Part shown: positions 3,802 through 25,497 of the stretch, piece by piece
How positions within the stretch are numbered: the stretch's first letter is position 1
Layout of the letters: every line of letters starts with the position of its first letter
Source of the DNA: Sphingopyxis macrogoltabida
GTDB lineage: Bacteria; Pseudomonadota; Alphaproteobacteria; Sphingomonadales; Sphingomonadaceae
DNA: 64,000 nt
Reading direction: 5' to 3'
NCBI RefSeq assembly: GCF_001314325.1
Contig: NZ_CP009429.1
Coordinates: forward strand, 4,340,501 to 4,404,500
Position numbers and translations under genes: made by a program
The notes under the pieces: generated by a model
Told to the model about the DNA's origin: nothing
The model's input: only the letters and a program-made list of their open reading frames with translations
Databases searched by the model: none

Positions 3802-4071
3802 CTAGTCGGCGATAGTTTCATCTTCGATCGCGGCGCGTATCATCCGATCCCAGACCTCCGCGTCGCCGACGGCGAGCATCGCCGCACTCGGCTCGCGCAA
3901 GGTCTTCAGCACGGCAAGCGCGGCGTCGGCATATTCGCCCCAGAGGGCGTCCACCGCCTCGCCCGCGGACTGCACATCACCCTCGGCATTCTGGCTGAGC
4001 GCATGACCCGCGAGAACGCGCGCCACGCGTTCCACTGGCGACGTCACGGCCCGATCAAGCTCGGTCGGCAT
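3802..4071 (-). CDS. small hypothetical helical protein
   Basis: 89 residues from MPTELDRAV. The start at 4071 is chosen because an AAGGAG ribosome-binding sequence lies 6-8 bases upstream; the open frame reaches 4122 but without a site. The protein is Ala-rich and predicted helical by eye (VERVARVLAGHAL, DAALAVLKTLRE, VWDRMIRAAIEDE). No domain recognised. It is on the same strand as the next gene upstream (4146-4400), separated by 74 bases. Confidence 0.55.
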   Translation of the reverse strand: MPTELDRAVTSPVERVARVLAGHALSQNAEGDVQSAGEAVDALWGEYADAALAVLKTLREPSAAMLAVGDAEVWDRMIRAAIEDETIAD

Positions 4072-4145
4072 GATATTCTCCTTCGGCTGAGCAACACGAT
4101 CCAGCGCAGGAGGTTGCAACATGCCCAGCCGCGATCGCCAAAACC

Positions 4146-4400
4146 CTAGATCGACATAGAGGAATCCCCGGCCGCCATCGTCACGACATTGCCGGGACGG
4201 ACAGGAAGAAGCTGCCAGACATCGGCTTCACCCTTCGTCATCCGGGCCAGAAGGGTCGCTCCTTCCCAGAGCTCGACGTGGATGCCTTCCTCTTCGTTTC
4301 GCGCAACCTGAGACGCGTGGTCGGGACTTTCAGCCACGAAATCGACGCGGCGGGGCTCGGGCACTGACGCGCCCGACAAAATCAGATGGAAGGGACGCAC
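4146..4400 (-). CDS. small hypothetical protein
   Basis: 84 residues starting at GTG 4400 (MRPFHLILSGASVPEP), selected because GAGGAG lies just upstream (4408-4413 region). Longer in-frame extension to ATG 4472 has no visible ribosome-binding site. The sequence alternates short beta-like segments (RRVDFVAESPDHA, IHVELWEGATLLARMT). Not recognised as a named family. Expressed from the minus strand together with the preceding and following small genes. Confidence 0.5.
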   Translation of the reverse strand: MRPFHLILSGASVPEPRRVDFVAESPDHASQVARNEEEGIHVELWEGATLLARMTKGEADVWQLLPVRPGNVVTMAAGDSSMSI

Positions 4401-4656
4401 GATGTGCTCCTCAGTGTCGGGAGCAAGCGTCACCAGGCTCACGGCATTCAATCGATCGGCCGACCGTAACAACGGGACTGCGGGTTATGCCGGAACCACG
4501 AGTAGCCGATCAGGGGTGGATCCGCAGCCAGTGGAAGCAGCGTAACAGCTTTTGGAGAAGAATGTCAGAAATCTCCGCAAAATGGCGCAATCGCGTCCGT
4601 TCGGGCGATACCCTCCTGTAATGTCCGGCTATAATTCCGAAGCGCAGAATTTGGAA

Positions 4657-4686
4657 GGCCGGGCCGCATCGAAATGCGGCCCGGCC
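4657..4686 (-). terminator. strong GC hairpin with TTCG tetraloop
   Basis: Perfect 13-bp inverted repeat (GGCCGGGCCGCAT at 4657-4669, partner 4674-4686). Read on the minus strand the loop is the very stable TTCG. It lies 38 bases after the stop of the Gln-rich small protein. There is only a weak T-tract (TTCC), so it may be a terminator or an mRNA-stabilising hairpin. Confidence 0.6.
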
Positions 4687-4723
4687 CCAAGAGGACGCCT
4701 CGGCGTCGACTCTGCGATCGCGA

Positions 4724-4888
4724 TCAGCGGTTCTGACGATTCTCGTCGTCGCGGCCGGCCTTGTTGTCGCGGTCCTGGTCTTCCTGACCGGGCTGGCGGC
4801 GCTGCTGGTCCTGCTGGTCCTGCTGGCCGCCGCCCTGACCGGGCTTCTTTTCGGGCTGGCCGCCCTGCTGTTGATTATTCTGTCCCAT
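4724..4888 (-). CDS. 54-residue Gln/Gly/Asp-rich hydrophilic protein
   Basis: Starts MGQNNQQQGG and is built almost only of Gln, Gly, Asp, Arg, Lys and Asn, with no hydrophobic core, so it is probably intrinsically disordered. Small Gln/Asp-rich proteins of this kind are common beside stress genes in Sphingomonadales; the function is unknown. The start at 4888 is preferred over ATG 4897, because the AGAGG motif is at proper spacing only from the former. It is followed by the TTCG hairpin at 4657-4686. Confidence 0.6.
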   Translation of the reverse strand: MGQNNQQQGGQPEKKPGQGGGQQDQQDQQRRQPGQEDQDRDNKAGRDDENRQNR

Positions 4889-5206
4889 CTGGGTCATCCT
4901 CTTTCCATATCTGCCTGGGGGGTAGGCATGAAGACGACGCCCCGGTGAGGCGGATGTTCCGCCGCGGCCAACGGCCCGTCGCAAATCGGGGACAGAAGGA
5001 GACAGCGAGCCCGCAGGGCGAACGGACGCGCTCTTGGCGAGCCCGCAGCGGGGCGGCGTGCGATGCGGGCCTGGGCCTAGCCGCCGCCCGGCAAGGAAAG
5101 CGAGCCAAGTGCGCTCGCGCGGCCAGAACAAGACGCGGTCCCGGGCCGAGCCTGCGAGGTCCGAGCACGCTCTTCAGATGCCGCGCTCGACACGCCGCCG
5201 CGCGGC
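4889..5206. other. gene-free stretch
   Basis: About 320 bases between the Gln-rich protein and the HU terminator. I see the Shine-Dalgarno of the former and GC-rich sequence with no convincing frame: the open frames here are Arg/Ala-rich shadows. No tRNA-like structure noticed. Confidence 0.4.
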
Positions 5207-5233
5207 CGTCCCGCCGGGCACACCGGCGGGACG
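5207..5233 (-). terminator. hairpin downstream of HU gene
   Basis: 11-bp perfect stem (CGTCCCGCCGG at 5207-5217, partner 5223-5233) with a 5-base loop, starting 8 bases after the HU stop codon on the minus strand. No T-run follows, so it may be a pause or stability element rather than a full intrinsic terminator. Confidence 0.55.
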
Positions 5234-5240
5234 TACCGGC

Positions 5241-5516
5241 TTAGCCGTTCAGACGATCCTTGACGGCCTTCGCGGCGCCGAAGGTCAGCTTCTTCGAAGC
5301 CGAAATCTGGATGGTTTCGCCGGTCGAGGGATTGCGGCCTTCACGCGCGGCCGATTCCTTGACCTTGAACTTGCCGAAGCCGTTCACCGAGACTTCGTCG
5401 CCCTTGGCGGCGGCGTCGGTGATCGCGGCGAAAACGGCATCGACAGCCTTCTTCGCATCGGCCTTGCTCAGACCAAGTGCGGTTGCGACGCTGTCCGACA
5501 GTTCGGCGTGGTTCAT
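5241..5516 (-). CDS. HU family DNA-binding protein
   Basis: 91 residues, normal length for HU. Hallmarks: N-terminal helices MNHAELSDSVATALGLSKADAKKAVDAV broken at typical positions, the core VSVNGFGKFKVKESAAREGRNPSTGE with the DNA-intercalating arm (RNPSTGE), and the C-terminal FGAAKAVKDRLNG. HU bends and compacts DNA as a dimer in the nucleoid. The start at 5516 is set by GAGGAG seven bases upstream; five earlier residues in frame are excluded. Monocistronic, with its own downstream hairpin. Confidence 0.95.
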   Translation of the reverse strand: MNHAELSDSVATALGLSKADAKKAVDAVFAAITDAAAKGDEVSVNGFGKFKVKESAAREGRNPSTGETIQISASKKLTFGAAKAVKDRLNG

Positions 5517-5655
5517 AAAATATCTCCTCACGCGGCCGGAAGGATCCCGGCCGGGCGGGCGCTATAGCGCCGAGTACCGGGCGGCGCCATCTGCGCCGCG
5601 CCAAGGCGCGGCACGGCGAGTTGCACTCGGTGGCGGTGTGCGGCAGTAGCGGCGG

Positions 5656-6561
5656 ATGCTTCCCCACCGTCTCATCGCATCCGCCCTGCTCCTGCTGGCT
5701 GCTGCCTGCTCGCCCGCGACCTCCGCACCCGCAAACCCGTCTGTTCCATCGAAACCGCTCAAGCTCGCGAGCTGGAACCTCGAATTTCTGGCTGAGCGGA
5801 ACGGCGAGGGCTGCAACCCCAGGGATGACACCGACTATGCCGCGATGCGCCGCATCGCCGATGGCCTCGACGCCGATGTGATCGCCTTTCAGGAGGCCGA
5901 GAATGAGACCGCCGCAGCGCGGGTCTTCGATCCCGCCAAATTTGTCGTGATCATGGAAGCGCGAAAGGGTTCGCCGGACGGCACCTGCGGCGGCAAGTTC
6001 CCGGCGCAGACGGTGATCCGCCAGGCGGTCGGCTTCGCCATCCGCAAGGATATCGCGTTCGACCGCCATGCCGATGTGACCTCGTTGATGCGCGGCAACG
6101 AACAGCTTCGTTCGGGCATCGACATCACGCTCCGCCCCGAGGGCCGCACACCGATCCGCCTTCTCGGCATCCACTTGAAGTCGGGCTGCTTCTCGGGGAG
6201 CGAGGCGAAGGCCTGCCCCATATTCCAGGATCAGATCCCGGCACTCGAAGCCTGGATCGACGCGGCCGCCGCCGAGCCCGATCGCTTCGCGGTGCTGGGA
6301 GACTGGAACCGCCGCCTCGCGCTTCCCGGCGATATGATATGGACCGAAATCGACGATGGCGATCCGGTCAACGCCGACCTGACGCTCGCCGACGCGGGCC
6401 AGCCGCCGGCCTGCAACCCGCGCTATGACAGTTTCATCGATCATATCGTGCTCGACCGGCGCGCCGCCGCCGACCGGACCGGATTCAGCGAAACGCTCTA
6501 TGTGCCCGGCGAGAAGCATTACTCGGACCACTGCCCGATCGCGGTCACGCTGCGGCGCTAA
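5656..6561 (+). CDS. secreted endonuclease/exonuclease/phosphatase (EEP) family lipoprotein
   Basis: 301 residues. The N-terminus is a lipoprotein signal (MLPHRLIASALLLLAAACSPA, lipobox LAAAC). The EEP fold follows: LASWNLEFL with the metal-binding Asn, VIAFQEAEN with the catalytic Glu, HLKSGCF, LGDWNRRL with the Asp-Asn pair, and C-terminal YSDHCPIAV with the catalytic His. Members hydrolyse phosphodiester bonds in DNA, RNA or lipids; an exported one may scavenge phosphate or nucleotides, but the substrate cannot be read from sequence. It is divergent from the HU gene. Confidence 0.85.
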   Translation: MLPHRLIASALLLLAAACSPATSAPANPSVPSKPLKLASWNLEFLAERNGEGCNPRDDTDYAAMRRIADGLDADVIAFQEAENETAAARVFDPAKFVVIMEARKGSPDGTCGGKFPAQTVIRQAVGFAIRKDIAFDRHADVTSLMRGNEQLRSGIDITLRPEGRTPIRLLGIHLKSGCFSGSEAKACPIFQDQIPALEAWIDAAAAEPDRFAVLGDWNRRLALPGDMIWTEIDDGDPVNADLTLADAGQPPACNPRYDSFIDHIVLDRRAAADRTGFSETLYVPGEKHYSDHCPIAVTLRR

Positions 6562-6648
6562 AAATCGCGGACGCCCACAACGCCCACGGAACTATCATGC
6601 CCCTGGCACGTTTCACTTACCTGTCCAGACGAAAGAATGGCAGAATTT

Positions 6649-6705
6649 GATCGCATCTTCGGATGCAATCTAGGGAAGCCCCGCTGCAGAGATGTAGCGG
6701 GGCTT
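6649..6705. other. two tandem hairpins between convergent genes
   Basis: First hairpin: GCATC-TTCG-GATGC (6653-6666), extended by GAT/ATC outside one mismatch. Second: AAGCCCCGCT (6676-6685) pairing perfectly with 6696-6705 around a 10-base loop. They lie between the end of the EEP gene (plus) and the small acidic protein (minus), so a bidirectional terminator is the simplest reading, although no T-run follows either stem. A small structured RNA is possible. Confidence 0.45.
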
Positions 6706-6769
6706 ACCATTTCCGCTCGCGAGATCAGCGCGACAAGATGCCGCAGGCGAGATGCCATGCGGCCGTTCA

Positions 6770-6898
6770 TCACTCCGTTTCAGGCACATCCTCGATGCTC
6801 TCCCTGCCGTCGTCACCGGGGAGGGGAACCTGCTCCGGAATTTGTTCGGGGCCAGTCGGCAGAGAATCGGGATGCGGATCGGGCGGTGCGCTGGCCAT
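6770..6898 (-). CDS. 42-residue Pro/Asp/Glu-rich small protein
   Basis: MASAPPDPHPDSLPTGPEQI at the start, then a Gly-Asp-Asp-Gly-Arg-Glu motif and an acidic end (IEDVPETE). The start at 6898 has GGAATCCCTC upstream. No hydrophobic core, so probably disordered. Short proline- and acid-rich proteins ending in this way recur in sphingomonad genomes; the role is unknown. It is convergent with the EEP gene. Confidence 0.5.
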   Translation of the reverse strand: MASAPPDPHPDSLPTGPEQIPEQVPLPGDDGRESIEDVPETE

Positions 6899-7166
6899 GA
6901 GGGATTCCTTGTTATGACAGGTAGACCAACGACGCCTTGGCACGATTGTTCCGCCCGCAGCCCCGGTCTCCCCGAAAGGCGCCGCGAGTGCCTCATACGG
7001 CCCTCTAGCGCCATCGAAGGTCTTGACGAACTTGCGAGCCGATCTGGACCAATTAGCCTTGCATCTAGAGTGGTGCGGCAAGCCCACAATCTTTATGAAC
7101 CTGCTGGCGGCATGTCCGTGCTGAATAAATTTGAGACAAAGCCTAAAAAGGCGTCGGGAGGGCATA

Positions 7167-9839
7167 ATGGATATCACTCAGGCTCTGGCCCTGGACAATG
7201 GCGCCCGATTCTTCCGCGGCGATCTTCATATCCACAGTGTTACGGGCTCGCATGATGTCAGCGATGCGACCGCCACGCCGGAAGCAATAGTCGCGACCGC
7301 GAGGTCGGAGGGCTTGCACATTATCGCGATTGCCGACCACAATGAAATCGGAGGTGTCGGGCCAGCACTGGAAGCTGCGAAAGGAACCGGCCTGCTCGTC
7401 GTTCCCGCCGTCGAGTTATCGACGGCTCACGGTCATATCCTTTGTTATTTTGGCACCTTGGACGCGCTAACGCGCTTTCACGCGAAGCTGTCGCTGGCGG
7501 ATCGAAACACCGCAAACTCGCGATGCTCCAATGGCGTCGTCGATATTCTTGACCTTGTGAAACAAGGAGGGGGCTTTGCCATCCTCGCACATGTTGACGG
7601 CGGGAAAGGCCTCGAAACCGAGATTCCGGGAAATCCGCCCCACAAGAAGGACATAATTTGCCATGCGGCGCTGCTCGGAATCGAACTGAAGCGAGCCGAT
7701 AGCGATATCTCCTATTCCGACCTTGATCCGGATGGTGATCGAAAGACGCTCGGCCGCCAACGGATAGAAGCCCTCGGCCTCGGAAAGTCGCAATTTCTGG
7801 CGCGTCTGCTCAATTCGGACTCGCACACGCTCAACGCTTTGGGCCGGAATGCGGCAGGCGACCGCAAGGTGACCCGATACAAGATGCAGGAAGTCACTTT
7901 CGACGCATTGCGGCTTGCGCTGCAAGACAGTGATGCTCGTGTGCGCATTGAGGAAGATGTGCCGGCACGAATACCCATGGTGCGGGCCTTGGCGATGCAC
8001 GGCGGCTTTCTCAGCGATCAAGGCGTACATTTCAGTCCGAACCTGAACTGCATCATCGGGGGGCGGGGCACGGGAAAATCGACGACTTTCGAAGCCATTC
8101 GTTGTCTGACGGGCCATTCCGGCGCCGGCGATGTGGTGGACTCCGAGGTTTGGCCCGACCTCATCGACCTCGTCGTCAATGACCAGTCGGGACAGACGAT
8201 AAAGATGCAACGCCGGCGCGATTCCAACGTCGAGGATCCTGATGACCCGGAAGCATTGCTGCCTCATTTCGCCGTTGAATGTTATGCCCAGAGCGAGGCC
8301 GCGACGATCAGTCAAAACGCCACCGCCGACCCTGCGGGATTGCTAAGCTTCCTCGATCGGTTCATCGGCGTTTCGGCCGACCTCAAGGAGGAACGGGATG
8401 TTCGGCAAGCGCTTCTCGATTCCGAAGCCGAACTCAAAAAGGCCACGGAATATGTCGCCCTCATTCCGGGGGTGGACCGCGATCTCAAATATAAGAAGTC
8501 CCAATTGGCGGCACTCGAAGCGCAAAAGGGCAAGGAGGTAATCGCCCTCATCCGCAAGCTCGAGAAGGAGAAGGAGGTTCGCTCTTCGCTTCGCCGCGAC
8601 CTAGACGAGCTTCTAGGCCTAACCTCGAACGAGGCGCTGCGGGAGTGCATCGAGAGTATCGAGACGTCTGTCGACCCTGCCGACCTCACCATTGGCGGGG
8701 ACGAGTATCAAGCGATCGCGACCCAGGCGTCGGCATTTAAATCGAAGGTCGTTGCTGCGGAAACAGATCTTCAGGACGCAGCCAAGGCACTGGGGACGGT
8801 CATGGAACGCGAATTGGCCGCGTGGCGGGTAAAGGAAGCGACAGCCAAGGCCGAAATCGATCAGAAGCGCGAAGCGCTTGAGCAAAGTGGCGTCCGCCTC
8901 GACATCGTCTTCATCAATAGCCTGTCCACCGACGAGGCCAAGCTGACCGAGCGCCTCCGGAAGCTGAAGACCTGGGAGCCCGCACTCGAGCGAGCGCGAA
9001 AGGAACGCGCTGAGCTCGTGAAGAAGCGCTGGGAAATTCGACAGCGGATTGCCACGAAGCGGAGCGCCTACGGCGTCAAGGCGAGCACCACTCTCAAGGC
9101 AGTCCTCACCGACCTGAGCGTGTCGCTGAAGTTTCTTCACAGCGCATATTCGCCGTCAGGCTGCTCCGTCATCAGCGAAGCGATGAGCTGGCGGACGTCC
9201 CGGGTTCCAAGAGCGGAAGTTCTGATCGAGACCTTGTCATTGCCGGTGTTGGTGCAAGCCGTGCTGAAGAAGGATAAGGCAACGATCAAGGGCGTTAAGG
9301 AAAAGGACGGATCAACGGTTTTTTCCGACGCCGATGCGCAATCCATCATCGACAACCTGTCTCCGCCGGAGGTGATGTACAAACTTCAAGCCGTTGAAGT
9401 CAGCGACAAGCCCCAGCTGATTGTCGCCAAGGCCATGGCAGGCAGGCCGCAGCCGATGATCCGGGATTTCAGCCGGCTTAGCCTCGGACAGAAGCAGTCC
9501 GTCCTGCTTGCGCTCATGCTTTCGGCGGAATCCAACCGGCCACTCATCATCGACCAGCCCGAAGATCATCTCGACAGCGAGTTCATTTATCAAACCCTTG
9601 TTCCTGTCCTCCGTCGCGCGAAAGAGCGTCGCCAGGTGATCATTGTAACTCACAATGCGAATATTGCGGTCTTGGGGGATGCTGAGCAAATCATCGTGCT
9701 CAAGGCGCAAGATGACAATGGCCGGATCGTATCGAGTGGCTCGATCGATCATCCGGACACGCGGCAATATGCCTGCGACATCCTCGAAGGATCGGCGGAA
9801 GCGTTCAAGCGGCGCGCCGCGATCTACGGGGTCGCTTAG
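7167..9839 (+). CDS. PHP-domain phosphoesterase fused to SMC-like ATPase (TrlF-like)
   Basis: 890 residues from ATG 7167, set by GGGAGGG seven bases upstream. Residues 15-260 form a PHP metallophosphoesterase domain: GDLHIHS (Asp19, His21, His23), IADHNE (Asp57, His58) and VVPAVELS. The rest is an SMC/RecN-like ABC ATPase: Walker A GGRGTGKST, a long coiled-coil middle rich in Glu/Lys, signature LSLGQKQSV, Walker B RPLIIDQPEDHLDS and the H-loop VIIVTHNAN. The layout resembles proteins annotated as TrlF-family AAA-like ATPases and is typical of nuclease-ATPase defence proteins; the substrate is unknown. It opens a run of defence-type genes, supporting but not proving an antiphage role. It appears monocistronic. 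Confidence 0.85.
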   Translation: MDITQALALDNGARFFRGDLHIHSVTGSHDVSDATATPEAIVATARSEGLHIIAIADHNEIGGVGPALEAAKGTGLLVVPAVELSTAHGHILCYFGTLDALTRFHAKLSLADRNTANSRCSNGVVDILDLVKQGGGFAILAHVDGGKGLETEIPGNPPHKKDIICHAALLGIELKRADSDISYSDLDPDGDRKTLGRQRIEALGLGKSQFLARLLNSDSHTLNALGRNAAGDRKVTRYKMQEVTFDALRLALQDSDARVRIEEDVPARIPMVRALAMHGGFLSDQGVHFSPNLNCIIGGRGTGKSTTFEAIRCLTGHSGAGDVVDSEVWPDLIDLVVNDQSGQTIKMQRRRDSNVEDPDDPEALLPHFAVECYAQSEAATISQNATADPAGLLSFLDRFIGVSADLKEERDVRQALLDSEAELKKATEYVALIPGVDRDLKYKKSQLAALEAQKGKEVIALIRKLEKEKEVRSSLRRDLDELLGLTSNEALRECIESIETSVDPADLTIGGDEYQAIATQASAFKSKVVAAETDLQDAAKALGTVMERELAAWRVKEATAKAEIDQKREALEQSGVRLDIVFINSLSTDEAKLTERLRKLKTWEPALERARKERAELVKKRWEIRQRIATKRSAYGVKASTTLKAVLTDLSVSLKFLHSAYSPSGCSVISEAMSWRTSRVPRAEVLIETLSLPVLVQAVLKKDKATIKGVKEKDGSTVFSDADAQSIIDNLSPPEVMYKLQAVEVSDKPQLIVAKAMAGRPQPMIRDFSRLSLGQKQSVLLALMLSAESNRPLIIDQPEDHLDSEFIYQTLVPVLRRAKERRQVIIVTHNANIAVLGDAEQIIVLKAQDDNGRIVSSGSIDHPDTRQYACDILEGSAEAFKRRAAIYGVA

Positions 9840-17848: not shown

Positions 17849-18544
17849 ATGAACTTATACCGGCACAAGGAATGGGCAGCCTATCGTGCAGAGCAGATCA
17901 GGCTGCATGGTGGAGTATGTGCCCACTGCCTTCGCTCCGGCGACGAGGTTGTGCTTCAAGTCCATCATCGCGATTATGTCGCGGGACGCCTCCCTTGGGA
18001 ATATCCCTACCAGGAATGTGAAGTTCTTTGCAGAGGATGCCACGCAAAGGAGCATGGCATTATCCAGCCATCGAAGGACTGGGTCCTTATCGGGCATGAC
18101 GATCTCGGCGGTTTAGATGGCGAATGCGAACAATGTGGCCAAGCGCTGCGCTACGCCCACATGGTGTTCCATCCTAAATGGTGGGCAATGGTCGTCGGCG
18201 AAAAATGTTGCAATGATCTCACCGAGGGCACCGTAGGAACTGAGAGCCATGCCGATTTCCTGAATTTTCTCGATCGAAGAAAGCGCTTCGTCGGTTCCAG
18301 CAAATGGCAGGCTAACAACGATGGGAGCCTGTCCATCCGACGTAGCGGCATTGCGATCCTAATCGTTATGACGGCCCCTGGGCAGTTTCGGTTTCACCTC
18401 GACGAAGCGCATGGAAAGGTCGATCATCCGACGATACTGGATGCAAAGATCAGTGCGTTCGATTTCGTTGAAAGCGGAAAGGCGGCTGCCTATCTCGCCG
18501 AGCGGCTGCAAAGGGCCAAATCCGCCTCGCATCGGAGCCAGTGA
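17849..18544 (+). CDS. HNH endonuclease-like protein
   Basis: 231 residues. N-terminal HNH/zinc module: GGVCAHCLRSG (Cys-x2-Cys), VLQVHHRDYV (the His-His of the beta-beta-alpha metal site), then EVLCRGCHAKEHG (second Cys-x2-Cys plus His). A further Cys cluster (GECEQCGQALRYAH, GEKCCND) may bind another zinc. The C-terminal half is unrecognised. HNH enzymes cut DNA using one metal ion. The ATG at 17849 follows GGGGCGAG. The stop overlaps the start of the RES gene by one base (TGATG), so the two are co-translated and probably act together. Confidence 0.75.
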   Translation: MNLYRHKEWAAYRAEQIRLHGGVCAHCLRSGDEVVLQVHHRDYVAGRLPWEYPYQECEVLCRGCHAKEHGIIQPSKDWVLIGHDDLGGLDGECEQCGQALRYAHMVFHPKWWAMVVGEKCCNDLTEGTVGTESHADFLNFLDRRKRFVGSSKWQANNDGSLSIRRSGIAILIVMTAPGQFRFHLDEAHGKVDHPTILDAKISAFDFVESGKAAAYLAERLQRAKSASHRSQ

Positions 18545-19416
18545 TGGAACTCGACAATCCCGACGCCAAGGAGTTTGCGTCTTGGCGCAGTTACGACGTC
18601 TATGCGGATCGAGTGCGCCATTCGAGCCGGTACGTTTGGGACCCCGCAATCCAAGCCTTTTTGGCAACAGTCATCGCAACGATCGAACAGCGCGATCAGA
18701 CACTGCACACCGGACGCATTCTGTTTCGTGCGCAGCAAGGCGTCGAGGTCTTCGACCAGCATGACGAACAAGGAAACTGGATCGGCGAGTACACTTCAGG
18801 TTTCGGTGCAAAGCGGATGAAGCCACTGGAACGCCGCGCGAAAGAGGGCCGAGCCAACCCCGCAGGCATCCCGGTCCTCTACCTCGGGAGCACCGCGGAG
18901 ACATCCATTTCAGAAGTTCGACCTTGGGTCGGCGCAGAAGTCTCTGTAGCAAAGTGCAGAATTCTCCGCGATCTCAGGACTCTGGATCTGTCGCTCGGCC
19001 ACGGACATAGTTCGTTTGGCGGTCTAAACATGGGCCAGATTATGGGAACTACGCCTATATCAGCGCCGGAGAAGAAGAGCGCCGTTTGGACCGATATCGA
19101 CAACGCGTTCTCACGACCTGTCACCCTGTCGGACGATTCAGCCGACTATGTTCCGACCCAAATTCTCGCGGAGCTTTTCCGCGCGCAAGGCTATGATGCA
19201 ATCGCGTACAAGAGCCAGTTCGGTGACGATGAGGGCTACAATATTGCGGTGTTCGATCCATCAGCAGTCGATGTGATCAGCTGCGCCCCATATCGCGTGG
19301 AGACGATCAAGGTCACCGCCGCGCAGTTTGACAACGACTGGTACAAGCACGTCGCTGGGGAGGAGGAGCTGAACCAGCTAGCGAACAGTACCGAAGAAGA
19401 TCACCGACCGACCTGA
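18544..19416 (+). CDS. RES-domain NAD+ phosphorylase-like toxin
   Basis: 290 residues. RES features in order: GRILFRAQQG (Arg of the motif), MKPLERRAKEGRANPAGIPVLYLGST (Tyr), AETSISEVRPW (Glu), a long insertion, YVPTQILAELFRAQGYDAIAYKS (Ser) and GYNIAVFDP (Asn). RES toxins degrade cellular NAD+ by phosphorolysis and normally pair with an Xre/COG5642 antitoxin. None is next to this gene; the coupled partner is an HNH protein. GTG 18541 is an alternative start two codons earlier. At 290 residues it is longer than the ~150-residue toxins of Xre-RES modules, so it belongs to a long RES class. Confidence 0.8.
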   Translation: MELDNPDAKEFASWRSYDVYADRVRHSSRYVWDPAIQAFLATVIATIEQRDQTLHTGRILFRAQQGVEVFDQHDEQGNWIGEYTSGFGAKRMKPLERRAKEGRANPAGIPVLYLGSTAETSISEVRPWVGAEVSVAKCRILRDLRTLDLSLGHGHSSFGGLNMGQIMGTTPISAPEKKSAVWTDIDNAFSRPVTLSDDSADYVPTQILAELFRAQGYDAIAYKSQFGDDEGYNIAVFDPSAVDVISCAPYRVETIKVTAAQFDNDWYKHVAGEEELNQLANSTEEDHRPT

Positions 19417-19445: not shown

Positions 19446-19577
19446 TCAGCCTGCGCGGCGGGCTGTGGTCTCCAGCTCGGCGATACGATCGCGGCAGATT
19501 CCATCAACGATCTCCGCGAGCCGCTCTACGCGCGCGCCGAGCCATTCAAGCTCCTCCGCTGATATGCTGTAATGCTT
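19446..19577 (-). pseudogene. 3' fragment of the MNT-HEPN gene split by RIT1
   Basis: Read on the minus strand this piece encodes KHYSISAEELEWLGARVERL and continues to an RAG stop at 19446. It aligns with the C-terminal helix of the intact MNT-HEPN protein at 19749-20654 (AAYDIGSDDLQAIRAAVAML). It continues in frame from the interrupted N-terminal part at 23984-24784, where the break falls after KARYS. Removing the RIT element restores one frame. By itself it has no start and is not expressed as a protein. Confidence 0.85.
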
Positions 19578-19578
19578 T

Positions 19579-19670
19579 GATTATGCCGAGCGCCACACTA
19601 TGCCGAGCGGGCGCGGTAGGTCCCGGCTTTCCAGCAACTTTGCGGTGATCGGCTCGGCATAGTTTTACGC
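19579..19670 (+). repeat. RIT1 left terminal inverted repeat (92 bp)
   Basis: Perfect inverted copy of 23868-23959. Contains TATGCCGAG twice directly (near 19582 and 19600) and once inverted (near 19652), likely recombinase-binding motifs. Confidence 0.92.
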
Positions 19671-19748
19671 ATCCGATCTGGGGCAATCGATGCCGATCGG
19701 CCGCAATGAGGTCTTGCCACCGGGCGTGAAGATGGCGAGACTCCGGGG

Positions 19749-20654
19749 ATGAAGAACGATGTCGATCATCTTCCGCCGGCGCAGCAGGAAGAACTGGCGC
19801 TAGCAACGCGGATTTTGATGGACGAATTTGCCGTCGCGATCTCGCGCGCGACGCAGCCGTGGAAGAAGAACGGCAAGGTCCGGAAGGTCATCCTCTTCGG
19901 CAGCTATGCGCGCGGCGACTGGGTCGATGAGCCCGAGAACGGGTATCAGTCTGATTATGATCTGCTGATCATCGTCAGCCACGCTGACCTCGCCGATATC
20001 GCGGAATATTGGTATGTCGCCGAGGACAAGATCCTGCGTGATGCGGCGATTGCACGGCCCGTGAACATTATCGTCCACACGCTCGAAGAGGTGAATCGGG
20101 GGCTCACTCGCGGCGAGTATTTTTGGGTCGACATCGCGCAGGACGGTGTCGCTCTCTACGAGTTGCACGGCACGGCGCTCGCCACGCCGCAGCCGCTGAC
20201 CGCGGCGGATGCCTATGAAATGGCGAGCGGCTATTTTGCGGACTGGTTGGCCAAGGTCGACACGGCGCTTGAGGGGGCCGATTTTTATATCGGCAAAGGA
20301 CACAAGAACGACGCCGCCTTCACGCTGCATCAGGCTGCCGAGCGGGCGTACACCTGCTTCCTTCTGGTGCGCAGCCAATATGTTCCGCGTTCGCATAATC
20401 TGAAGTTTTTGCGTTCGCTCGCCGAGGACCGGGAGACGCGGCTCGTCGAGGCCTGGCCGAGGGCAACGAAGGTCGATCGCCGGCGCTTCGAACTGGCGAA
20501 ACGCGCTTATGTCGAGGCGCGCTACTCGGCTGCGTACGATATCGGCAGCGATGATCTGCAGGCGATCAGGGCGGCGGTGGCCATGCTGCGCGACACGGTT
20601 GAGACGGTGTCGCGCGAATGGCTCGATGGGCTCCGGCAGAAGGCCGACCTCTGA
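19749..20654 (+). CDS. MNT-HEPN fusion protein (nucleotidyltransferase + HEPN), RIT1 cargo
   Basis: 301 residues. N-terminal minimal nucleotidyltransferase: KVILFGSYARGDWVDE (Gly-Ser) and QSDYDLLIIV (Asp-x-Asp). C-terminal HEPN helices: FTLHQAAERAYTCFLLVRSQYVPRSHNLKFLRSL and a final KRAYVEARYSAAYDI. In two-gene MNT-HEPN systems the HEPN half is an RNase or tRNA-directed toxin and the MNT half modifies it; here both are one chain. It lies inside the RIT element, convergent with the recombinases (18-base gap). Its closest relative in the window is the gene RIT1 interrupts, roughly half identical by eye. The start follows CCGGGG. Confidence 0.85.
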   Translation: MKNDVDHLPPAQQEELALATRILMDEFAVAISRATQPWKKNGKVRKVILFGSYARGDWVDEPENGYQSDYDLLIIVSHADLADIAEYWYVAEDKILRDAAIARPVNIIVHTLEEVNRGLTRGEYFWVDIAQDGVALYELHGTALATPQPLTAADAYEMASGYFADWLAKVDTALEGADFYIGKGHKNDAAFTLHQAAERAYTCFLLVRSQYVPRSHNLKFLRSLAEDRETRLVEAWPRATKVDRRRFELAKRAYVEARYSAAYDIGSDDLQAIRAAVAMLRDTVETVSREWLDGLRQKADL

Positions 20655-20672
20655 TCGCTGCGGCGGTCCGAG

Positions 20673-21674
20673 CTACAGCGCGTCGAGAAAGGCCAGCAGT
20701 CGATCTTCCGGTTCGAACCGCCCGGGTCGCTTCATATTATGCGGCTGGAGCTTGGCGAGCGCGGCGGTCTTGAGTGCGATATGAGCATGGAGATAGGCCT
20801 GCGTCGTCAGGATCGACTCATGTCCGAGCCACAGCGCGATCACCGACAGGTCGACACCCGCCTGGAGCAGTTCCATCGCGGCGGTGTGCCGAAGGACATG
20901 CGGCGATACCCGCTTGTGTCGCAGCGATGGGCAATGCGCGCGCGCCGTCCGGACGTGCTTGGCGAGCAGATACTGGATGGCGTCGGGGCTGAGGCGGCCA
21001 CCGTGGATGTTGGGGAACAGCGCCGATGCCCCGCCGCGTGGCGACTCCTTCAGCCAGTTCTGCATCGCAGCGCGGACCTTGCCTGCGAGCGGCGTGCGCC
21101 GTTCTTTGCGGCCCTTGCCGACGCATCGGACATGCGCGCCGGTGCCGAGCATGATGTCGCTGCGATCAAGGCTGGCGATCTCCGAAAGGCGCAGGCCCGT
21201 CTGGATCGCGAAGAGCAGCAGCATATGATCGCGGCGGCCGAGCCAGCATGTTCGATCGGGCGCGGCGAGGACCGCGTCGATCTCCGGGCGCGACAGGAAA
21301 TGGACCTCGCGCTTCTCGGTGAGCTTGCCGGGGATCGCGAGAATGCGCTGAATCTGCCCGCTGCTTGCCGGTTCCTCGAAAGCGAGAAAACGGAAGAACG
21401 CCCGTATCGCCGTCAGCCGGAGGTTGCGGGTCTTGGCTCCGATCGCGCGGCCCGCTTCGAGATCGTCGAGGAAGGCGATGATGAAGGGGGCATCGAGATC
21501 GGCGAGATCGAGGTGCGAAGGCGGCTTCCCGAGCCTGCGCTGTGCAAAGCGCAACAGCAGCCGGAACGTGTCGCGGTAGGATGCGACGGTGTGCGGGCTG
21601 ACACCGCGCTGATGCATGAGGCGCTGAGCGAAATACCGCTCGATCAGTGGCGCAATGGACGGGGACCGGGTCAT
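20673..21674 (-). CDS. RIT1 tyrosine recombinase, third of trio
   Basis: 333 residues from MTRSPSIAP. N-terminal core-binding domain (YRDTFRLLLRFAQRRLG) and catalytic domain with the tyrosine-recombinase set: Arg in QTGLRLSEIASL, Lys in VGKGRKERRTPL, His-x-x-Arg in SPHVLRHTAAM, His in WLGHESILTTQAY and the nucleophile Tyr in AYLHAH. ATG 21674 overlaps the previous gene's stop (ATGA). Together the three proteins catalyse strand exchange at the element's ends. It resembles 48433-49437 of RIT2 in length and position. Confidence 0.92.
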   Translation of the reverse strand: MTRSPSIAPLIERYFAQRLMHQRGVSPHTVASYRDTFRLLLRFAQRRLGKPPSHLDLADLDAPFIIAFLDDLEAGRAIGAKTRNLRLTAIRAFFRFLAFEEPASSGQIQRILAIPGKLTEKREVHFLSRPEIDAVLAAPDRTCWLGRRDHMLLLFAIQTGLRLSEIASLDRSDIMLGTGAHVRCVGKGRKERRTPLAGKVRAAMQNWLKESPRGGASALFPNIHGGRLSPDAIQYLLAKHVRTARAHCPSLRHKRVSPHVLRHTAAMELLQAGVDLSVIALWLGHESILTTQAYLHAHIALKTAALAKLQPHNMKRPGRFEPEDRLLAFLDAL

Positions 21675-22597
21675 GACGCCTGCTCCCATCGGGCATCGAG
21701 CCGCCGCGCGGCATGCTCCATCAGCTCGGGACAGGCCGACAGATACCAATATGTGCAACTGGTATGGCTGTGCCCTAGATAGGTCGACAGGATGGGCAAT
21801 CGCTGCTCGACGTCGTCGCCGGCACGGTACCAGCGCAGCAGGGTGGCGACCGCATAGCTGTGGCGCAGGTCGTGAATGCGCGGGCCGCGATATGCATCGC
21901 CGGGACGGCGCAAGCCGATCTGGCGAGCGACCGTACGAAATATCAGATGGATCGCGCTATGATTTAACGCGCGACCTTGTTCCCCGACGAAGAATGTCGG
22001 GCTGATCGGCGTGAAGCAGACTGCATCGCGGCGCTTGGCGTAATCGGTGAGCACGGCAACCGTGGTCGAATGGATCGGAACGAGGCGGGACTTGCCGAAC
22101 TTGGTATCGCGGATAGTCAGAAGGCCAGCGCCGAGATCGACATCGTCATGCTTGAGCCTGAGCGCTTCACCGATCCGTAATCCAGTGACCGCAAGCAGGC
22201 CGAAAATGCAGTAATAGGTCCAGCGATGCAGGCCCTTCGCCGAGCGAACCGTCAGCATCGCATTGAGCAGGCTGCCGATCTCCTGGTCGGTATAGATATA
22301 GGGCGTTCGGCGCTGCCTTGCCGCGAGGATGTCCGTCGGCGGAATCTGGGTGCGCGGCTCGGTGCTCGACAAATGCCTGGCAAAGGCGCGGACGGCCGAC
22401 AGGCGTCCCGGCCAGGTTGGCGGCCTTGCCTCCTTGGTGGCCCAGTCGAGGGCAAGCTTGGTGGTGATAATCGCCGCACCCTGTTGCTCCATGTCGGCGA
22501 CGAAACGCGAGAGCAGCAGAGCCTGGCATCGCAGCTTGTATCCGAACCCGCGGCGCATGGTGATGTAGCGCTCGAGCGCGTCGCGTAGCGGGCTCAT
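21671..22597 (-). CDS. RIT1 tyrosine recombinase, second of trio
   Basis: 308 residues from MSPLRDALERYITMRRGFG. Catalytic residues: Arg in VTGLRIGEALRL, Lys in DTKFGKSRLVP, His-x-x-Arg in RIHDLRHSYAV, His in YLGHSHTSCTYWY and the Tyr that follows. The spacer between the HxxR box and the last His is long (RWYRAGDDVEQRLPILS), a feature shared with the middle gene of RIT2. ATGA overlaps join it to both neighbours. No stand-alone function is expected without its partners. Confidence 0.92.
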   Translation of the reverse strand: MSPLRDALERYITMRRGFGYKLRCQALLLSRFVADMEQQGAAIITTKLALDWATKEARPPTWPGRLSAVRAFARHLSSTEPRTQIPPTDILAARQRRTPYIYTDQEIGSLLNAMLTVRSAKGLHRWTYYCIFGLLAVTGLRIGEALRLKHDDVDLGAGLLTIRDTKFGKSRLVPIHSTTVAVLTDYAKRRDAVCFTPISPTFFVGEQGRALNHSAIHLIFRTVARQIGLRRPGDAYRGPRIHDLRHSYAVATLLRWYRAGDDVEQRLPILSTYLGHSHTSCTYWYLSACPELMEHAARRLDARWEQAS

Positions 22598-23835
22598 TGC
22601 ACGCCTCCCGGCCATGGCTGGCTCAGGGTACGCAGGCTTGCCAGATCCACCTTCGCGTAGATGCGCGTGGTATCGTGATCTTTATGCCGCAGCACCTGGC
22701 TGATCTGGGTCAGAGCGGCGCCCGAACGCAGAAGTTCGGTTGCAAGGCTGTGGCGGAATATATGCGAACCGCGATGGGCGATATCGCTGATCCCCGCCCG
22801 CCGGAGCGCTCTCCCGGCAATATCCCTGATGCCGCTCGTCGGCGGGAATCCCGAATGCGGCGGGTAGGCCTTCAGGAAGAGCTGGCGTCTATCGGATACC
22901 GGGCGACCGCTCTGAAGATATGCGGCGATGGCGGCGCCAACATCGGGAGGCAGCGGCATGATCGCCTGTTGCCGTCCCTTGCCCTGAATGCGGAACTGCC
23001 CAGCGCGCCAGTCGATGTCATCGAGCGTGAGGGTCGCCACTTCTTGTGCCCGCAGTCCAAGCCGGGAGAGCAATAGCAGGATCGCATAATCGCGGCGCCC
23101 TGAAGCGGTGTTCTGGTCACAGTGCTGGAGCACCTGCTCAAGCTGCGCGGCCGAAAGATAGGTCGGCAGCGCTGTAAAGCGCCACTTTTTTACCGAGGGG
23201 ACGCAGGCCGCAAGATCGTTCGCGATCAAGCCTTCGACCTGAAGATATCGCAGGAACGATCGGAGCCGTGAGCACATCGCCACCGCCGTCGCCGCACTGG
23301 CGTCGCGGGCACGCCGTTCGACATATCCGAGGACGTCGGCCGTTGTCAGTTGAGCGAAATCGCCAGGCCCGGTAATCGACATGTCGCGCAAAAAGGGGCG
23401 CGTGAACTTGACATAGGCCGCGCACGACCTCGCGTTGAGACCGTGCCGATGATCGAGATACGCGCGGAAGCGCTCGAGTATCTGATCGGTGGGGCTGGAC
23501 GGAAGCGGTAACGCCGGAGCGACAATCTTCGCCTCGCGGAGGACCTCCACAAATCTACCGATCGCCGCCGGGTCGCCGCCCCGCAAACGGCAACCCCGAT
23601 CCCCATCCTCAAAAAAGCGAGCGGCGAGCTGTTCGTTGATGTTGCGGCGATCGAAATGGCGCTCGGTCAGCCACCGGATGAAACCGTTGACGATCCTGAC
23701 CGAATATCTTGCCGTGACCGTGCTGTAGCCGTCGTTGCGAAGCCGGTCCGAATACAGGTCGATGCAGTCCCTGAATGGCCCCGCCCGCAAATCGCGGATC
23801 GTCCAGCTTCCGTTCAAAAAATCATTTAGCGTCAT
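22594..23835 (-). CDS. RIT1 tyrosine recombinase, first of trio
   Basis: 413 residues. N-terminal ~120 residues form an extra domain before the usual core-binding part (AYLDHRHGLNARSCAAYVKF). Catalytic set: Arg in LGLRAQEVATL, Lys in QGKGRQQAIMPL, His-x-x-Arg in GSHIFRHSLAT, His in LRHKDHDTT and Tyr in RIYAKVD. First gene of the operon, starting 33 bases inside the right inverted repeat. A promoter may lie in that repeat. Confidence 0.92.
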   Translation of the reverse strand: MTLNDFLNGSWTIRDLRAGPFRDCIDLYSDRLRNDGYSTVTARYSVRIVNGFIRWLTERHFDRRNINEQLAARFFEDGDRGCRLRGGDPAAIGRFVEVLREAKIVAPALPLPSSPTDQILERFRAYLDHRHGLNARSCAAYVKFTRPFLRDMSITGPGDFAQLTTADVLGYVERRARDASAATAVAMCSRLRSFLRYLQVEGLIANDLAACVPSVKKWRFTALPTYLSAAQLEQVLQHCDQNTASGRRDYAILLLLSRLGLRAQEVATLTLDDIDWRAGQFRIQGKGRQQAIMPLPPDVGAAIAAYLQSGRPVSDRRQLFLKAYPPHSGFPPTSGIRDIAGRALRRAGISDIAHRGSHIFRHSLATELLRSGAALTQISQVLRHKDHDTTRIYAKVDLASLRTLSQPWPGGVQ

Positions 23836-23867
23836 AGCTTCCTCCTCTGCGATGGGTGCAGGGAGGA

Positions 23868-23959
23868 GCGTAAAACTATGCCGAGCCGATCACCGCAAAG
23901 TTGCTGGAAAGCCGGGACCTACCGCGCCCGCTCGGCATAGTGTGGCGCTCGGCATAATC
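23868..23959 (-). repeat. RIT1 right terminal inverted repeat (92 bp)
   Basis: Exact reverse complement of 19579-19670. Reads into the truncated MNT-HEPN gene and supplies part of its new C-terminal tail. Confidence 0.92.
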
Positions 23960-24784
23960 GAAATTATGCCGAGTTCGGCATAACTTCGAGTAGCGTGCCT
24001 TGATGTACGCTTCCTTCAATTTCTCGAAGCGTGACCGATCGGTCTTCACCTCTCTAGGCCATGCCTCGAACAGGCGCGCGTCTATCCGTTCAGCCTGCGT
24101 GCGCAGGAAGGCAAGATTATGGATGTGCGGTGTGTGCAGCGTGCCAACAAGCAATACACAGTGATAGTAGCTCTCGACAGCCTGATGAAGGAGAAACGCC
24201 GCCTTCTTGAAGCTCTTTCGATCCAGGTAGAACTTGTAACCCTCGATGAATTCCGTCGCGCCGGAGTACCACTCGTCAAAATATTCTTGCGCCATCTCGA
24301 GCGCTGCATGCGGCGTCATAGGCTTGGGTTCTGCGAGCTCCTTCCCGTCGGCCTCGTACAGCGCGATCCCGTCACGAGCGACGTCGATGAAGAAATAGCG
24401 CCCCTGCGTAAGTCCGGAGTTCACCTCGTCGAGGCTGTGGACAATGAAGTTCACCGGCGTGCGGAGCCGCTTGGTCACCGACAGCTCACGAATGAGCCGA
24501 TCGTCGAGCTTCGACCAATAGTCCGCCCGATCGGTCAGCCGCTTGTCGTTGACGATGATCAGCAGGTCATAGTCGGACTGATAGCCCTTCGCCGTGTGCG
24601 GCTCGTCGACCCAGCCACCCCGTGCATAGCTGCCGTAGAGGATGATCTTGGAAATCCGGCCCTTGCGCTTCCAGTCCTGCGTCGCGAGCGCCAGCGCATC
24701 CTCGAATTCCTCGAAGATGATCTCGACGACGCGCTCGATCTCGCGTTGCTTGTGCGGGGGAAGATGTTCGAGGCTGCTCTGCAT
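23876..24784 (-). pseudogene. MNT-HEPN fusion gene truncated by RIT1 (5' part)
   Basis: Starts MQSSLEHLPPHKQREIERV at 24784. The nucleotidyltransferase motifs are intact: KIILYGSYARGGWVDEP and YQSDYDLLIIV. The HEPN helices run to FEKLKEAYIKARYS, where the original sequence ends at about 23987. The open frame then continues through the palindrome and inverted repeat, giving a foreign tail (KLCRTRHNFDYAERHT...) of about 37 residues to a stop at 23876. The true last ~40 residues are at 19446-19577. The main MNT and most HEPN residues remain, so the product may still be made, with altered activity. Confidence 0.85.
23964..23983. repeat. palindrome at outer edge of RIT1
   Basis: TTATGCCGA-GT-TCGGCATAA: 9-bp arms around two bases, four bases outside the right inverted repeat. 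The arm repeats the TATGCCGA motif of the inverted repeats. No such palindrome is at the left end. Confidence 0.85.
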
Positions 24785-24867: not shown

Positions 24868-25191
24868 TCAGTCGGCGGGTGTCCAGATGATCGCGAAGAC
24901 ATCGTCGCGATCCTGCCCCGCGGCGCGGCCGAGATTGGCGTAGATGCGCCGCGGCCCGAACTCGGGGGTCGCGAGCGAAAGGGAGACATAGGGTCGCCCG
25001 GATTGCTCGGCGACGCGGATCCAGCCGGCTCCGATCTCGACGCCATCGGACCAAACGCGATAGTCGGGCTGCACATCGCTCGCCTTGCCGCGGTTGGGGC
25101 GTATCTCGACCGGGGCCTTGATCGACAGCGTGATGAGCTGACCTACAAACCCCTTTTCGATGCTGCCGCTGACGATGCCGATGCTCGCCAT
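24868..25191 (-). CDS. DUF736 family protein
   Basis: 107 residues from MASIGIVSGSIEKGFVGQL. The DUF736 pattern is clear: IKAPVEIRPN, PDYRVWSDGVEIGAGW, GRPYVSLSLATPEFGPRRIYANLG, ending in DDVFAIIWTP. The function is unknown, but in Alphaproteobacteria the gene is a regular passenger of conjugative plasmids and integrative elements, where it sits near replication and transfer genes. Its presence marks this part as mobile DNA. The longer frame upstream is GC-rich shadow. Confidence 0.9.
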   Translation of the reverse strand: MASIGIVSGSIEKGFVGQLITLSIKAPVEIRPNRGKASDVQPDYRVWSDGVEIGAGWIRVAEQSGRPYVSLSLATPEFGPRRIYANLGRAAGQDRDDVFAIIWTPAD

Positions 25192-25497
25192 ATCCGGTCT
25201 CCTGCTAGTCGACCCGAGACCATCCCGGGCGTGAAGCCGGGCAGGACGGCGGCACAAGGCAGTCGCGCACCCGCAGGGCCGAAGCGAAGCGGCGGAGCGG
25301 GACGAAGGACCGCTTGCGCGGCAGCCGCCGCCGTCCAGTTTGGCGAAGCGCCTCAGGATGGTCACGGACGCGCAGGACATTCAGCGAAGGACGGTGGGTA
25401 GCGTAAGCTGGCCTCGAGGCAGGTTGGCCAAGTTAGCGGAGGATAGCGCGTAAGACCCGGGAAGAACGCCTCACGACAATCGGGCTGCTGCTTCGCT
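25192..25497. other. gene-free stretch
   Basis: 306 bases between DUF736 and the MerR gene. High GC, no convincing frame or repeat; likely holds the DUF736 promoter on the minus strand. Confidence 0.4.

Follow-up and report, generated by a model that had tools for sequence, protein, structure and literature searches.

A recombinase-in-trio element of Sphingopyxis macrogoltabida that carries an MNT-HEPN gene and appears specialised on MNT-HEPN genes as its targets

The DNA examined here, referred to as the window, is a stretch of 64,000 nucleotides from Sphingopyxis macrogoltabida (assembly GCF_001314325.1, contig NZ_CP009429.1, positions 4,340,501 to 4,404,500), within which a recombinase-in-trio (RIT) element bearing an intact gene for a fused nucleotidyltransferase-HEPN (MNT-HEPN) protein lies inside another gene of the same family. 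The element proper occupies 19581-23957 (4,377 bp) and is composed of inverted-repeat ends, three tyrosine recombinase genes and the MNT-HEPN gene, hereafter the cargo; the initial annotation, which had described a 4.4-kb RIT element that cuts an MNT-HEPN gene after its KARYS codons, is thereby confirmed. The terminal inverted repeats, 95 nt as aligned and 99% complementary, lie at 19576-19670 on the cargo side (+ strand) and at 23868-23962 on the ritA side (- strand), slightly beyond the limits of the element proper. The recombinase genes are consecutive, overlapping and in tandem on the - strand: the first (22594..23835) is RitA by position and size, the second (21671..22615) is RitB by position, and the third (20673..21758), with an uncertain start codon, is RitC by position. 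All three contain the Pfam Phage_integrase domain. The cargo, convergent with ritC at 19749..20654 on the + strand, encodes 301 aa with NTP_transf/Polbeta and HEPN domains.

The 5' part of the target gene (23984..24784, - strand) encodes the MNT domain and most of the HEPN domain, the Polbeta match passing the Pfam cut-off and the HEPN match falling just short of it, and stops at 23984 with ...KARYSK. Its 3' part, the last 43 codons plus the stop, runs from 19577 to 19446 on the same strand and starts KHYSISAEEL; that these are indeed two pieces of one gene is borne out by uncut paralogues of the same genome, which read ...KARYSKHYRI... across the point of interruption (KARYS|KHY). The cargo and the gene it interrupts had been judged by eye to be roughly half identical, and the alignment agrees, at 50% identity across 266 residues. 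The two ends of the insertion are not alike. Beyond the ritA end of the element there is an inner 6-bp core (23958..23963) which, inverted, is identical to the 5' core found at two further copies of the genome; then, on the target-5' side, a 20-bp palindrome, TTATGCCG-N4-CGGCATAA (23964..23983); and then the target-side core, whose coding-strand (-) sequence TCGAAG forms the last 6 bases of the target 5' part, ending at 23984. At the other end stands a single 6-bp core (19575..19580), TCAAAG on the target coding strand.

A one-off insertion can be dismissed, as the S. macrogoltabida genome (5.75 Mb, three contigs; G000 in our labelling, where G, C and L numbers designate genomes, contigs and loci) holds four copies of the element, one of them truncated, in four different MNT-HEPN genes, and every copy carries the MNT-HEPN cargo. 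With the association recurring in other genomes as well, neither of the findings that the initial annotation had named as refuting it was made. The copy at C1:852.9k is identical to that in the window in 4377/4377 bases; the copy at C2:392.7k departs from it only by one extra base (L010, about 6690-6730), which breaks the ritB frame; and the copy at C1:731.5k is truncated in ritA and identical across 3206 bases counted from the cargo end. The targets of these three are 46-68% identical to the target piece in the window, and all four copies cut their targets at the same codons, with TAY before the core in 4/4 cases and CAY after it in the 3/3 that have a readable 3' side. The bodies of the copies are oriented two each way. 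A plasmid search (two records matched) found the element itself only in S. macrogoltabida 203N, where plasmid NZ_CP013345.1 is 100.0% identical over the element. In this plasmid copy, too, no ritB is annotated, and the MNT-HEPN target of the copy (L038 6394-7565) is additionally broken by an IS3 element, ISSpma3.

When the carrier genomes were searched with an intact MNT-HEPN protein, many genes were found to be cut at residue about 220, adjoining contig ends. Such a protein query is biased towards MNT-HEPN genes, and as such a target-blind scan for element ends was run, in which the end signature TATGCCG-N10-TATGCCG gave 36 matches in nine genomes and the reversed control pattern gave 0. After exclusion of one match whose flanks are not a RIT end (G000 C1:1361175) and of six ends of contigs made of the element alone, and with one junction found on two contigs (G150 C72/C75) counted once, 28 readable junctions were left, of which 25 lie in MNT-HEPN genes (G000 7, G621 3, G407 1, G624 2, G623 4, G622 5, G090 1, G150 2). 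The target genes of the three G621 junctions adjoin RIT ends or ritC, which is to say that they are cargos of other RIT elements. A second signature scan, of 397 family genomes, yielded 18 matches in 8 genomes, together with 3 of the control pattern; the signature matches in G087 and G216, with no RIT or MNT-HEPN gene within 3 kb, were taken as chance. Since MNT-HEPN genes occur repeatedly in these genomes, one might suppose that two of them merely flank a set of recombinase genes, by chance or through faulty assembly. We attach virtually no weight to this supposition, which is refuted by the inverted repeats, by near-identical copies in four targets at the same codons, and by the junction count with its empty control. 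The structure itself, a RIT element with an MNT-HEPN cargo inside an MNT-HEPN gene, is thus very strongly established, and the distribution of junctions argues strongly for a specialisation of the element on MNT-HEPN genes.

Two insertion sites are used, both within the HEPN part of the target. Site 1, at residue about 219, consists of Y and two codons of which the second is Pro, and is used in G621, G622, G623, G624, G150, G407 and G090; site 2, at residue about 266, reads Y-[SK or SP]-H and is used in S. macrogoltabida. All 13 intact 5' junctions compared (a set that leaves out Spaen_B, with its decayed palindrome) conform to TAY-6 bp-TTATGCCGN4CGGCATAA-6 bp-TTATGCCG, and in the 15 3' junctions CGGCATAA is followed by 6 bp and then directly by the target, with the palindrome in none. 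In ten of 13 junctions the inner core, when inverted, matches an outer core found at a different copy of that genome, and these are all ten of G000, G622, G623 and G624. Core-matched pairs have opposite body orientation in nine of ten cases, the exception being the 852k copy; orientation was assigned computationally for eight pairs (7/8 opposite) and by eye for two G624 pairs. The pattern is as if the element moves between successive MNT-HEPN genes. Such movement would be carried by an intermediate with the joint inverted repeat-core-palindrome-core-inverted repeat, in which the palindrome would make two equivalent crossover points, the choice between them would give either body orientation, and the core of the former site would stay beside the palindrome in the manner of a coupling sequence. 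A joint of this kind, its crossover points being interchangeable, would explain both the inner-core matches and the opposite orientations.

Solo palindromes were considered as candidate excision scars and occur at 20 places in 9/10 genomes; no scar was recognised among them, not every flank having been inspected, and a scar-like palindrome at G432 C21 is a contig end inside ardC. Read by eye in the frame of the target (MNT-HEPN as well as IS66, ardC and integrase-like targets), the palindrome encodes L-C-R-x-R-H, and the frame of cut MNT-HEPN genes, also by eye, stays open for ~35-41 codons into the element end.

Related elements were sought in genome sets that overlap: a RitA scan of genome contigs gave 13 loci, a RitA search of 298 family genomes matched 5, and RitC searches matched 12 of 396 order genomes at 1e-70 and 4 of 397 family genomes at 1e-115. 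Further RIT elements with an MNT-HEPN gene behind the third recombinase do exist, the order ritA-ritB-ritC-MNT-HEPN cargo being common to six distinct elements, that of S. macrogoltabida included. The other five (L018/G090, L019/G621 from Novosphingobium endophyticum, L021/G623, L060/G407 and L076/G150) have cargos 75-79% identical to that in the window; the inverted repeats of L060 were read by eye, those of L021 align over only 30 nt, and none were aligned for L076, the right end of which is on another contig. A seventh element, L020/G622 from Sphingomonas tagetis, has in the same slot an unrelated 218-aa open reading frame with no Pfam or PADLOC match, so that an MNT-HEPN cargo is present in 6/7 distinct elements with a readable region after ritC, drawn from two clades that target MNT-HEPN genes. 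Each of these two sphingomonad clades of the recombinase tree (for which the second piece of the broken ritA alone was used for L081) has both MNT-HEPN cargo and MNT-HEPN target, and the S. tagetis recombinase nests within one of them (95/95); its cargo has thus probably been replaced. RitC relatives also occur in 560 plasmid records, and no MNT-HEPN gene was found in the seven rhizobial or other plasmid relatives examined among them.

Comparison of the cargo genes yields dN/dS (ratio of nonsynonymous to synonymous substitution) values of 0.077-0.195 (36 pairs, nine cargos), next to 0.132-0.323 for RitC and 0.157-0.438 for RitA (15 pairs of six each), all of them rough because dS is high; they indicate purifying selection on the cargo gene. 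A tree of MNT-HEPN proteins (39 sequences, with the 144-aa C2 target left out) places seven cargos and their close relatives in one clade (100/100), which holds just one of 13 target rows, that row being itself an interrupted cargo. Furthermore, the cargo is found intact in two derivatives: in S. paeninsulae (L039) it stands beside a cut MNT-HEPN gene with only the left element end recognised and no recombinase gene found within 16.5 kb, and in G279 (L172/L174) it occupies 1.3 kb between two inverted repeats, with no recombinase gene found within 3 kb.

That the cargo is an intact homologue of the broken gene and is kept by selection invites the notion of a natural 'cleave and rescue', whereby the resident MNT-HEPN gene is destroyed, a cargo with an altered site replaces its function and the insertion is rendered harmless. 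The S. macrogoltabida cargo does lack the site used by its own element, having at site 2 TAC-TCGGCT-GCG in place of TAC-TCGAAG-CAT. Yet site 1 is still present in the cargos, and in G621 cargos were invaded there; uncut MNT-HEPN paralogues with an intact site persist in the S. macrogoltabida genome (at 2279k, 2321k and 1787k); the S. tagetis insertions have no MNT-HEPN cargo; and half identity between cargo and target in the window is modest for a substitute. We therefore hold this account to be unlikely. Its extension to a strategy resembling a gene drive, in which one gene family is repeatedly destroyed at a fixed motif and a functional replacement with a changed site is carried along, is similarly doubtful; were it true, host plasmids and integrative and conjugative elements (ICEs) would grow dependent on the copy that the element brings. 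The initial annotation had proposed that the cargo replaces the function it destroys, which is possible, or that it is a toxin protecting the element.

A toxin role is doubtful, since the HEPN RNase motif R-x4-6-H was not found: in 17/17 sequences no R lies 5-7 residues before H216, itself invariant in 17/17, and in 8/17 an R lies eight residues before it. The MNT motif GS...DxD is present, with G51, S52, D69 and D71 invariant in 17/17 sequences, and MNT and HEPN are encoded by a single fused reading frame rather than by separate toxin and antitoxin genes. RNase residues are typically absent from HEPN domains fused to MNT, according to the accessible text of PMC3710099. The predicted fold is nucleotidyltransferase-like; the HEPN half of the model is nearest 4nqf and the whole chain resembles aminoglycoside nucleotidyltransferases, and the cargo would act as a nucleotidyltransferase rather than as an RNase toxin.

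The weaker likenesses of this predicted fold include HalB of the Hailong defence system, and it may be asked whether the MNT-HEPN genes serve ICEs and plasmids in defence or exclusion, and are disabled while the element installs its own version against competitors. MNT-HEPN genes occur partly in ICE- or plasmid-like gene clusters, and at some loci they are near DUF736 or ardC genes. The same genome also has a second RIT type (L009, L010, L016 and L017, with L062, L064 and L065 elsewhere), which, where its flanks were read, invades the antirestriction gene ardC: in L009, L016, L062 and L064 by Pfam, and in L065 by eye, the insertion falls where an ardC-like gene encodes its zincin part, with the palindrome on the target's 3' side. 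An MNT-HEPN gene beside L065 lies outside the inverted repeats and was dismissed as cargo. This sabotage of rivals nevertheless seems to us distinctly improbable, as PADLOC gave only weak matches for MNT-HEPN, to candidate PDC models, and the rhizobial RITs have as their targets IS66 transposase genes (two checked and two read by eye), which have no role in defence.

The latter targets bear on another possibility, namely that RITs favour conserved motifs in the multi-copy genes of mobile DNA, and that the cargo was trapped by frequent visits with no functional link to the target. Besides ardC and IS66, a RIT from a metagenome-assembled genome lies in an integrase-like gene (a match below the Pfam cut-off), and the G279 derivative lies in an IS110 gene. 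RITs in IS66 tnpA and radC appear in the available text of PMC2864759, and PMC3414803, in its available part, has one in a Tn6049-type transposase gene and mentions an inverted repeat with an overlapping palindrome; insertion into mobile genes is thus general. A RIT with unrelated cargo is also at hand: L080 (CP122394.1, Geminicoccaceae; 3829-9436, 91-bp inverted repeats) has arsC and arsH, an aquaporin gene and a regulator gene in the interval from ritC to the right repeat. With L080 in view, the earlier statement that RIT elements are usually described as only three recombinases calls for qualification. Mere hitchhiking is nonetheless rather improbable in our estimation, given that the cargo is subject to strong purifying selection, persists in the two derivatives in which recombinases were not found, and is present in all but one of the readable elements of the two clades.

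We consider it probable that this is a sphingomonad RIT transposon specialised on MNT-HEPN genes, with an MNT-HEPN cargo that is kept because it is useful. The place after ritC would be a cargo slot, the MNT-HEPN gene would have been acquired from the very family to which the element returns time and again, and it would be retained because the host or the carrier element benefits from it, possibly as a substitute for the disrupted gene; a useful accessory gene in the slot is the favoured form of this explanation, and replacement of the broken gene a minority reading. Transposon and target gene thus appear to be evolutionarily tied. Several observations weigh against this explanation. Three of 28 junctions fall outside recognisable MNT-HEPN genes: G621 C3:220179 and C42:18060, seemingly the ends of an outer RIT, and G090 C23:4567 (the left flank of L018), with 58 flank bases and no recognisable gene. 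Two further elements, both outside the 28-junction count, lack such a target, namely the cargo-only G279 element in IS110 and the decayed L067/G432, the cargo of which is 74% identical to that in the window and which has no MNT-HEPN flank. The S. tagetis element targets MNT-HEPN genes with another cargo, and the divergences of cargo and recombinases are not parallel, so that elements may have swapped cargo; the dN/dS values, as noted, are rough. As regards the cores, G090 has the palindrome at neither end, the inner cores of G621, G150 and G407 (one or two readable insertions each) find no match, and the four G000 matches are less telling, given how little the cores of site 2 vary. Moreover, among the insertions that could be read on both sides, the outer cores differ in 4/5 and agree in 1/5 (G621 C3/C42, assumed to be one insertion); being mostly unequal, they point to exchanged cores rather than to plain duplications.

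Of the neighbouring genes, one with a RES domain (window 18541-19416) is convergent with the cut MNT-HEPN gene, a RES gene likewise adjoins the element copy on plasmid NZ_CP013345.1, and a DUF736 gene (24871-25380) lies upstream of the target. Similarity to the paralogue loci L012 and L013 reaches across the DUF736 gene, which suggests a shared ICE or plasmid gene cluster.

In the open-access collection searched we found no paper that combines recombinase-in-trio with HEPN, nor recombinases in trio with nucleotidyltransferase, in a comparison that excludes Ricker 2013 and Nielsen et al. 2017. RIT insertion into mobile genes is already known; the match of cargo to target and the record kept in the cores seem to be new. 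To the knowledge of the authors of PMC10214605, in its accessible text, RIT transposition has not yet been reproduced in the laboratory. RIT elements are widespread, and the multi-copy sphingomonad ones offer a precise and testable picture, with target sites resolved to the codon, a palindromic double-core joint, and 6-bp cores in which former sites seem to be recorded. The link of cargo to target also provides a handle on the role of the fused MNT-HEPN proteins of mobile DNA.

Among known systems, RIT elements such as those of Cupriavidus metallidurans CH34 resemble the present one in their three tyrosine recombinases, which are adjacent and overlap, in an end repeat with an overlapping palindrome, and in their insertion in genes of mobile DNA; in the available text of PMC2864759 and PMC3414803 they are of about 3.5 kb with no cargo described, whereas here there is a fourth gene, itself a homologue of the target, and insertion at fixed MNT-HEPN codons. 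GInts and the strand-biased circularizing integrative elements also encode several tyrosine recombinases or related proteins together, with another gene set and, in the accessible part of PMC10214605, no described link of cargo to target. The HEPN-MNT (HepT/MntA) type VII toxin-antitoxin modules have the same two domains, with MNT likewise before HEPN; here, by contrast, the two form one fused protein without the R-x4-6-H RNase motif. Tn554 and the conjugative transposons with coupling sequences use a tyrosine recombinase and a short core that keeps bases of the former site. The present element differs from these in its palindrome with two equivalent cores, in its three recombinases, and in having as its target a coding motif of the cargo's own gene family.

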